This document shows positions 1,048-40,163 of a DNA stretch of 64,000 bases, piece by piece. Each line of letters starts with the position of its first letter. The first letter of the stretch is position 1. Location of the stretch: positions 1,426,001-1,490,000 of the forward strand of contig JAKCFJ010000001.1 in assembly GCA_025041175.1 (NCBI GenBank). Reading direction: 5' to 3'. The position numbers and the translations under genes were made by a program. The DNA is from Halobacteriales archaeon YIM A00010 (GTDB taxonomy: Archaea; Halobacteriota; Halobacteria; Halobacteriales; Haloarculaceae). The notes beneath the pieces are model-generated. The model saw nothing but the letters and a program-made list of their open reading frames with translations. It ran no database searches and was not told the DNA's origin.

Positions 1048-1424
1048 TCGGAATCATGGCCCAGCAGGCCTCTATCCCCAGCAACGGACCCTGCAGACTA
1101 AAGAGTTTACCATGTGTTAGCACGCATCGATTATGATGAATAAGGTTCTATCATGAACATAAGGAATACGCAGTAATTATAATGAATGCTGATCGATCAT
1201 GTTCGTTTCGGATCGTGATCGAAATCCTATCATTGAAATTAACCATTTCGCGTGGCGCATCGAATCGGGCATGTACGCCGAATTTGGAGGTCTCGGCGCT
1301 TGAATCCCGGATCGATGCGTCGGCTCGCGACACGGCTCCGAGAAATCACAGATTTCTCGTGACGTGACCGTGGGCACAGCTCACGGTTTTTGGGCGTCCG
1401 ATCCGTAGCTCGAACCCGGATCGG
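1048..1424. other. Intergenic region upstream of korA with AT-rich patch and two hairpins
   Basis: No convincing gene is seen in these 377 bases. Positions about 1100-1200 are AT-rich, unlike the surroundings, with short repeats of atcatgaacata type, and probably hold the korA promoter region. Positions 1339-1391 hold two adjacent three-base-loop hairpins, listed separately. Short open frames here lack codon bias and recognisable protein features. Confidence 0.5.
1339..1391. repeat. Pair of three-base-loop hairpins (REP-like), second followed by T5
   Basis: First hairpin: arms cgagaaatc (1339-1347) and gatttctcg (1351-1359), loop aca. Second: arms ccgtgggc (1368-1375) and gctcacgg (1379-1386), loop aca, one G-T pair, followed by ttttt at 1387-1391. 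The arms resemble two hairpins of the array at 8102-8273 and differ from them by paired changes. Read on the minus strand, the order and the spacer containing gtca match the array. The T-run may also make the second hairpin a terminator for plus-strand transcription, although no plus-strand gene ends nearby. Confidence 0.7.
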
Positions 1425-8013: not shown

Positions 8014-8101
8014 CACCATAAGAGTTTGCAAGCGACGACCTGTCCTCGCGGGGCGAAACCATCCTTACTTCAATCGAACAGGCGGACTGCTGACTGTGTC
8101 T

Positions 8102-8273
8102 CCAGAACTCTCCATTTTCTGGTTGGCTAACAAGGGCGCAGCTCTTGTCAATGTCACCAGAAATCGGTGATTTCTGGTTGCTAACCGAAACTCTTCGAGT
8201 TCCGGTGATGTCGTCGGGCTACGCCCGACTGCTTGAGGGATTTCGTCCCTCTCTGTCGCCGGCCTGCGGCCGG
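8102..8273. repeat. Array of seven short hairpins, six with exactly three-base loops
   Basis: Tandem hairpins (stem span, loop): 8102-8122 (ccagaa/ttctgg, 9-base loop, degenerate); 8130-8148 (acaagggc/gctcttgt, gca); 8156-8178 (accagaaatc/gatttctggt, ggt); 8184-8206 (accg-aactc/gagtt-cggt, one mismatch, ttc); 8213-8229 (gtcgggc/gcccgac, tac); 8235-8251 (gagggat/gtccctc, ttc); 8259-8273 (ccggcc/ggccgg, tgc). Linkers repeat the words ttgctaac (8178, 8274; variant ttggctaac at 8123) and tgtc. The stems differ in sequence but share geometry. Related hairpins occur at 1339-1386 and 39650-39698. It is not CRISPR, because the units are palindromes without a constant repeat. Confidence 0.85.
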
Positions 8274-8567
8274 TTGCTAACCAGCCGTTATCACTATCCA
8301 GTCGGGCAGCAATGGTATACCATCGTTTTCGGCATACGACGATGGGCGAAAACGAGCACGGTACAGGCACGGAAACGATTCTACAGGCACGACGAACAGC
8401 GAAGTGACGAGCAACGACGCCGATGACGATGAGACGAAAGATCCCGACGGCGCATCGCTCTGAATCGATCCGTAAGAGTCAAACTCGGTACAACGACTGC
8501 ATTTCTGGCACAGATAGTAAAAAATCGCGTGTTCGAACTGACTGCGGTTAGGCTACCGTGGGGACGC
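8274..8567. other. Intergenic stretch with further palindromes and an acidic ORF tail
   Basis: atggtataccat at about 8312-8323 is a perfect 12-base palindrome. cgttttcg and cgaaaacg (about 8324-8354) can pair around a 15-base loop. The plus-strand frame ending at the tga at 8460-8462 has a halophile-like acidic tail (SNDADDDETKDPDGASL) without a credible start, perhaps the relic of a gene. Otherwise nothing is recognised before the thermosome stop codon. Confidence 0.4.
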
Positions 8568-39438: not shown

Positions 39439-39474
39439 CGGTCAAACCAGCACTCACACGTCCGTCTTCGGGTT

Positions 39475-40163
39475 GTGTATCTCACGGAGCTGGCGGCGGA
39501 ACTGAACGAAACGACGGCTAGCAACGCGATCGCCGTTCCGACCGATATCACCGACCGGACACAGGTTACGGAGGGGTTCGATCGGGTGCACAGAGAGTTC
39601 GGTCCCGTCGATCTGCTGGTGAACAACGCCTACCCCACTGGCGACATTACCAGAAATCTCCGATTCTGGTTAGCAGCCAGATTCCGATGGAATCTGGCGA
39701 CACCGAAAGCGGACTGGCCGACTCCGGTGACGGACCCCTCGGGGACGATCACTCGTCGTTCGAACGGTCGTTGCGCGTGTGGGCCGACGGTGCGTTCCTC
39801 TGCTCGGAACAGGCTGCGGCGGACATGCTCGCGGGTGACGGCGGTGCTATCCTGTTCACTAGTTCCTCTGCCGCCGTCCGCAGCGACGGAGTTGCCCACA
39901 GCAGTGCCGGGTTCGGGGCGCGCGGACTCGCCCGTTCGCTCGCTCGCCAGCTCTGGCCCGAGGGCATCTACGTTGCAACCGTGCTCGTCAACGGCAGCGT
40001 TGGCAGACCGGACCAGCGAGAGTGGGCGGACCACCCCGATGGGGAGTGGATTCATCCGGATCGCGTTGCAGAGACGTACTGGCACGTGGCGAACCAACAC
40101 CCGAGCGCGTGGACGCTCGAACTCGACATCAGGGTGCACGCGGCCGACATCAACTTCAGCTAA
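39475..40163 (+). pseudogene. SDR dehydrogenase, 5'-truncated and frameshifted by a hairpin repeat
   Basis: The first frame (39475-39646) encodes LTELAAELNETTASNAIAVP and PVDLLVNNAYPTGD, the middle of a short-chain dehydrogenase. From 39703 the continuation (ESGLADSGDGPLGDDHSSFE to the end at 40163) is in another frame. The N-terminal nucleotide-binding strand and glycine motif are missing, since elp3 ends only 36 bases upstream. Deleting bases 39647-39702 (56 bp) joins TGD to TES in one frame, so an inserted repeat caused the shift. The catalytic YxxxK is also not seen (AHSSAGFGARGL). Not functional. Confidence 0.85.
39647..39702. repeat. 56-bp inserted hairpin repeat inside the SDR pseudogene
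   Basis: Two hairpins: ccagaaatc-tcc-gattctgg (39650-39669, one unpaired A) and ccagattcc-gat-ggaatctgg (39677-39697, perfect 9 bp, extendable by one pair), separated by ttagcag. Read on the minus strand the linker is tgctaac, as in the array at 8102-8273. The direct repeat ctggcgaca occurs at 39638-39646 and 39694-39702, at the two edges, like a target duplication. Confidence 0.8.

Follow-up and report, generated by a model that had tools for sequence, protein, structure and literature searches.

A putative mobile double-hairpin DNA element of haloarchaea, encountered in a relic short-chain dehydrogenase gene

The two hairpins that interrupt a short-chain dehydrogenase (SDR) gene in a haloarchaeal genome very probably belong to a non-coding mobile DNA element of haloarchaea, which inserts precisely 3′ of the dinucleotide CA and of which this particular copy has lost one base. 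The source genome, Halocatena-like and 5.97 Mb in size, comes from a genus that includes Halocatena marina, H. pleomorpha and H. salina, and the window, i.e. the whole stretch of DNA that was analysed, comprises 64,000 nucleotides of it (G000:C1:1426001-1490000). Units of the same family recur throughout the genome and the class, and at several loci the filled sites could be compared with their empty counterparts.

The interrupted dehydrogenase gene

The SDR gene is represented by two fragments on the forward strand, both of which match the adh_short profile. The N-terminal fragment (39475..39646, +) ends in the coding sequence ...NNAYPTGD and covers profile positions 38-85, while the C-terminal fragment (39703..40163, +) covers positions 98-177. 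The intervening element copy (39647..39702, +) measures 56 bp, that is 57 minus one, as judged from the family alignment, and it scored 75.1 bits with the covariance model (E 1.6e-20 within the window, this copy being part of the training set). It is composed of hairpin A (39650..39669, +), which reads CCAGAAATC-TCC-GATT(-)CTGG and has a 3′ arm that is one base short, the constant linker TTAGCAG (39670..39676, +), the perfect hairpin B (39677..39697, +), which reads CCAGATTCC-GAT-GGAATCTGG, and the constant 3′ end CGACA (39698..39702, +). The 21-mer of hairpin B is identical at four other genome sites. For comparison, hairpin A of other copies reads GATTTCTGG, and the covariance-model alignment of the SDR copy displayed a single deletion, located in the 3′ arm of this hairpin.

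The initial annotation, made from the letters alone, had noticed two hairpins of one family within the gene and a 9-base repeat with a spacing of 56 bases. Indeed, the 9-mer CTGGCGACA is present at 39638-39646 and at 39694-39702, exactly 56 bases apart, and both hairpins lie between its two copies and are members of a dispersed family. The prediction that deletion of 56 bases restores the reading frame was verified as well: the two adh_short-matching fragments are then joined in frame as ...NNAYPTGD followed directly by TESGLADS..., which supports a net insertion length of 56 bp at this site. However, the joined sequence is only in part the ordinary SDR continuation that had been proposed. The distance from the N[N/H]A motif to the conserved F is about 15 residues in 28 of 28 homologs and 24 residues in the rejoined SDR, so that 27 further bases (nine residues) are unexplained, and the gene is devoid of the first ∼37 adh_short profile positions. 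The SDR gene is a relic with several lesions.

Among the genomes searched, H. salina was the only close relative with the SDR locus. The syntenic locus is arranged as elp3, element, SDR C-terminal part and a gene for a protein with metallo-beta-lactamase fold; it has the element but no SDR N-terminus, and the gene is more decayed there. The C-terminal fragments of the two relics share 79% amino acid identity. The genomes searched yielded no empty orthologue of the SDR site, the sole orthologous locus being the filled one of H. salina. The exact original junction in the SDR gene is therefore uncertain, since no empty orthologue was observed and the rejoined SDR is nine residues too long. In H. 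salina, the sequence 5′ of the element (L015, 1300-1500) is unrelated to that in the window (39439-39475) and resembles the end of an insertion sequence, so that a rearrangement had its breakpoint at the edge of the element.

The base missing from hairpin A reduces the SDR copy from 57 bp to 56 bp. From its sequence, a 57-bp copy of the SDR type would contribute 19 sense codons in the SDR frame without a stop. Since such a unit would read through, the frameshift would result from the missing base and not from the insertion as such, and the earlier view that the insertion itself breaks the frame is not supported, the standard unit with these stem sizes being 57 bp long. As we infer the order of the lesions, the SDR gene would have received a unit of the 57-bp type and the copy would then have lost the hairpin A base, while the gene would also have lost its N-terminus and decayed.

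Architecture and distribution of the double-hairpin family

When the units were aligned, they displayed the layout (CGA)CA-TCA-[hairpin A]-TTAGCAG-[hairpin B]-CGACA, the unit itself extending from TCA to CGACA over 45-57 bp, with two 21-base hairpins corresponding to 57 bp. CGACA or TGACA closes 38 of the 46 own-genome units. The stem sequences vary widely while their pairing is kept, 97% of the stem cells in the family alignment being paired. Covariation was evident from 66 cells that had changed on both sides, versus 17 after shuffling, and sliding of the partners abolished this signal. G-U or U-G pairs were found in only 4 of 438 stem cells. Furthermore, all 80 triloop hairpins in the own-genome units are closed by C-G, a closure shared by 150 of 386 (39%) other hairpins (stem length ≥5 bp), and the loops are of the GNA or TNC type in 60 of 80 cases (75%) versus 85 of 386 (22%) in those other hairpins. 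Recurrent stem types occur in both hairpin positions. Mini-hairpins of the C(GNA)G type, such as GCGAAGC, are unusually stable as DNA (PMC4686876). The near-absence of G-U pairs, taken together with the C-G-closed GNA/TNC triloops, suggests that the element acts as DNA rather than as RNA, and GC-rich sequence or selection on RNA could lie behind part of the loop preference. A search of Rfam gave no match to the unit, which ruled out a known RNA family.

The source genome contains dozens of copies. A BLAST search of the SDR stretch against it returned ∼40 further matches, most of which were unit copies, and the pattern ACCAGAAATCNNNGATTTCTGG with up to three mismatches was found at 45 genome sites versus none for the reversed control, well above what chance would give. 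The covariance model yielded ∼100 matches at E<1e-4, a number in which near-symmetric units are counted on both strands; the own-genome census rests on the covariance-model and BLAST searches. Within the window, a second array spans 8097-8309 on the reverse strand according to the covariance model. It comprises a second full unit copy (8152..8213, -; E 1.5e-18), a weaker neighbour (8254..8309, -; E 2.8e-4) and a degenerate neighbour (8097..8150, -; E 0.073), in which a hairpin was found. A possible diverged copy is located at 1318..1367 (-; E 3.3e-4). At some sites elsewhere, the arrays reach up to ∼10 hairpins, with TTAGCAG and CGACATCA linkers alternating (L005, L048).

Beyond the source genome, the covariance model detected the family in 191 of 292 sampled haloarchaeal genomes and in 62 of 77 genera. 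Part of the sequences described here served to train this model, but most of them have no bearing on the class-wide matches. Copy numbers across the class are lower bounds, since the Infernal filters were stricter there and no more than 18 candidates were scored in each genome. An exact-pattern scan of ∼85,000 species genomes returned 29 stretches, and every one of these was from a haloarchaeon or from a metagenome-assembled genome labelled Halobacteriales, Haloquadratum or Euryarchaeota. With regard to a viral carrier, no exact pattern match was obtained in IMG/VR. In one genus of the same family as the source genome, all ten listed genomes were free of the unit, and several of these had Y1 transposases.

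Two variants of the theme were observed alongside. Double hairpins of a related subfamily, in which the linkers differ (TCGCC..GG-CTGGCTG-CC..GG-CAACG), reside inside tnpB genes (L195, ∼2460-2520; L044, 1689-2031). In Halolamina and Halalkalicoccus, the unit is contained in larger repeats with T-tracts on both strands (six loci), and these T-tract-bounded repeats are possibly bidirectional terminators.

Filled and empty sites, and how the element may move

The clearest comparison of a filled with an empty site was provided by an acyl-CoA ligase gene, which is intact and encodes 542 amino acids with a 57-bp unit in frame. The orthologues that lack the unit, all three from congeners, are 520 (H. 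salina), 520 (H. pleomorpha) and 517 (genome G001) amino acids long. At the DNA level, the filled site reads ...GGAGACA, the 57 bp and then CCATG, whereas the empty site reads ...GG(T/C)GACACCGTG. Translated in frame, the unit yields ITGTQGVPVSSQKSKISGD, and the peptide GVGPGDITGTQGVPVSSQK or a similar one is the predicted product of the insert-bearing gene. The dN/dS ratio of 0.14 indicates that the ligase with its insert stays under constraint. In an uncharacterised ORF, a 51-bp unit keeps the frame open (...EKRI-ADVAERSSAANQKSEISG-DVDK...), where the empty homologue in genome G006 reads ...KKRIDTVNKARDG. The third case concerns the right end of an IS605-type TnpB element, for which the filled form is AAGCCCCA-unit-CCCTC...GGGTGGGGTAGTT and the empty forms are AAGCCCCACCCGC... 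(L195) and AAGCCCCTCCCTC... (L130); the insertion point in the right-end palindrome is GCCCCA^CCC. No target bases were lost at any of these three sites.

Precise insertion was also seen among the five own-genome paralogs of an uncharacterised WCxPC protein, four of which have one and the same unit of 51 bp. In-frame copies were found in further unrelated genes: an LMW-phosphatase gene (Pfam E 3.9e-25) has one or more units in frame, and the RefSeq glycoside hydrolase WP_247995250.1 of H. salina contains in-frame units or an array, while its neighbouring internal ricin-type repeat is without insert. The WCxPC protein gave no Pfam match, and at least five filled copies of it are present in H. 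pleomorpha. A 57-bp unit in a GNAT acetyltransferase gene (G000:C1:1926360-1926424) is in frame by its length, and its loop creates one TGA. In three tnpB genes (L044, 930-1572; L046; L092), units of 53-55 bp are situated at one H^R codon boundary and the frame is lost. In IS605 elements of the Halorubrum type, the unit supplies the last tnpB codons and the stop (...DKPHHQKSQTSG*), and it interrupts the right-end palindrome, where the TnpB guide RNA is expected to be encoded. Nine or more of these copies at the tnpB 3′ end suggested that the unit might have belonged to the guide-RNA region ancestrally, an idea that was rejected on the grounds that the tnpB copies of L130 and L195 have an uninterrupted right-end palindrome. 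An intron was rejected informally, the copies being present in both orientations relative to genes.

Among copies without a detected upstream hairpin, the left edge has C in 24 of 26 and A in 23 of 26 cases. The targets compared were TATCA, ATCCA, CTTCA, TTGCA, CCCCA, CACA and GACA, and wherever the empty form is known or can be inferred, CA alone is common to target and element end throughout. The overlap amounts to two bases in TATCA, in CCCCA and in TTGCA (H. pleomorpha) and reaches nine at the SDR site, where the N-terminal fragment ends in the target ...CACTGGCGACA, of which no more than the terminal CA is a feature common to the targets. The sequences thus showed insertion of the unit as a precise block immediately 3′ of CA, in either orientation with respect to genes. 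With insertion 3′ of CA, the 9-mer CTGGCGACA, which had been put forward as a candidate target duplication, is not a duplication but the 3′ end of the element: CTGG forms the foot of hairpin B and is followed by the constant terminus CGACA, and the other sites share fewer bases. Judged from the junctions, a duplication of the two-base CA and no duplication at all both fit, while the 9-base version is not supported. The filled and empty pairs at other loci do support the proposal that the family enters coding genes and is or was mobile; current activity is unproven, since the pairs compared included no insertion that postdates a species split.

We propose that the unit is inserted as one block 3′ of CA, with neither base loss nor duplication beyond the shared CA. 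As the element ends in CGACA, which is again a target, the inserted end would serve for further insertions, and such self-targeting may have generated the arrays with their alternating TTAGCAG and CGACATCA linkers. Units with a length that is a multiple of three (57, 51) can survive in protein genes as 17-19 extra codons. Transposition may use single-stranded DNA in its folded form and depend on an enzyme that recognises hairpins and is supplied in trans, for which a Y1/HUH-type enzyme or a functional equivalent is a candidate.

Of the alternatives, we regard it as possible, though unlikely, that these are REP/REPIN-like or PATE-like units moved by the Y1 transposase of IS200/IS605 (TnpA/RAYT) via a single-stranded circle. 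The hairpins, the lack of duplication, the short left target and the doublet layout resemble Y1 chemistry, PATEs are known from haloarchaea (PMC3119063), and across genomes the family and Y1 are weakly associated (odds ratio 1.8, p 0.02). However, of the 67 genomes in which five copies or more were detected, 21 have no Y1_Tnp match, and the mean copy number, based on lower-bound counts, is 5.2 without and 4.9 with Y1. Moreover, the unit flanks none of the four own-genome Y1 transposase genes, the target is not of the GTAG or TTAC type, and the unit was inserted into the right-end palindrome of IS605, from which it does not derive. A Y1-linked REP system was rejected on the same absence of flanking Y1 genes and of Y1 from many copy-rich genomes. 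Somewhat more doubtful is an origin by replication errors, in which a hairpin-forming nascent strand would anneal to the CGACA end through a microhomology of 2-9 bases and be copied in without a dedicated enzyme. This would account for the variable shared length at insertion sites, from CA up to the entire 9-mer, for the wide distribution without a consistent enzyme and for the recurrence of stem types in both positions, but template switching should leave ragged ends, whereas several dispersed sites are exact and both ends are nearly constant over 46 units. That the units are selected functional parts of RNA or DNA (terminators, mRNA stability elements or protein-binding sites) and not mobile DNA is improbable: the strong covariation and the T-tracts beside some Halolamina and Halalkalicoccus copies would suit such parts, but not the filled and empty pairs within unrelated genes, the lack of an Rfam match and the scarcity of G-U pairs. 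Local co-option of units after insertion is possible. Finally, the earlier model holds that an insertion of 56 bp duplicated a 9-bp target and inactivated an SDR that was ordinary in all other respects, an intact relative of which would read ...NNAYPTGDTESGLADSGDGPLGDDHSSF... at the junction. It agrees with the 56-base spacing and the restored frame but is very improbable, as the 9-mer forms the end of the element, the sharing at other sites is confined to CA, and the SDR has other lesions and 27 extra bases.

Comparison with known systems

If the proposed mobile double-hairpin element is real, the genomes of most haloarchaea harbour a tiny mobile element that adds its own sequence to proteins, as the palindromic elements of Rickettsia do in bacteria. 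Its covarying, base-perfect stems and constant ends would narrow the search for the enzyme to one that cuts 3′ of CA beside a C(GNA)G-capped DNA hairpin, and annotation could be corrected where in-gene copies mimic frameshifts, odd insertions or target duplications. More tentatively, and with slightly less than even confidence, we consider that this is a class-wide archaeal family with a new architecture, in which double DNA hairpins with freely diversifying paired stems combine with hairpin-dependent insertion after CA by a route other than IS200/IS605, self-targeted arrays and additions of 17-19 residues to working proteins. No description of the unit was found in the open PMC papers searched, which is limited evidence of novelty.

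The rickettsial palindromic elements (RPEs) are likewise short palindromic mobile repeats that lie in frame within unrelated protein genes (PMC10969869), as the unit does in the acyl-CoA ligase, the uncharacterised ORF, the LMW-phosphatase and the glycoside hydrolase. However, RPEs are bacterial, rickettsial and ∼100-150 bp long, whereas the unit is haloarchaeal, measures 45-57 bp and is built of two separate hairpins with a fixed linker and covarying stems. Like REP, BIME and REPIN sequences (PMC3733652, PMC3116915), the unit occurs as dispersed hairpins, as doublets and in mosaic arrays whose linkers alternate. It differs from them in that only the pairing and not the stem sequence is conserved, in that its constant edges are TCA, TTAGCAG and CGACA with no GTAG beside the hairpin, and in that it flanks no RAYT/Y1 gene of the source genome. 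Unlike the CGTC REPs, it has no unpaired CGTC, its end being CGACA/TGTCG, and unlike MITEs it does not combine the terminal inverted repeats of a known transposon with a target duplication, only CA being shared.

PATEs are short, palindromic, devoid of genes and inserted without duplication, and some are only 52 bp long (PMC3119063). The unit resembles them in its near-terminal palindromes and the lack of target duplication. PATEs, however, carry IS605 ends and use a target of 4-5 bp, whereas the unit has two hairpins seven bases apart and inserts into IS605 ends after CA; the filled and empty right-end palindromes showed it to be an insert and not a bearer of IS605-derived ends. Since REP, CGTC-REP, MITE and IS605-derived PATE each fail in a defining feature that was tested, we have filed the unit under the broad kind of small palindromic mobile repeats, with SMR-A compared by description. 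SMR-A of Haloquadratum walsbyi shows no target duplication, has no known mobiliser and inserts in near-terminal palindromes of the IS605 type (PMC3119063). Likewise, the unit is haloarchaeal, causes no duplication and enters an IS605-type palindrome (GCCCCA^CCC). SMR-A, known here by description only, measures ∼110 bp and has prominent terminal inverted repeats, which may set it apart; single units of the present family measure 45-57 bp and two-unit arrays ∼110 bp. Among RPE, BIME/REPIN and SMR-A, it is above all SMR-A that appears nearest to the unit in its manner of working.
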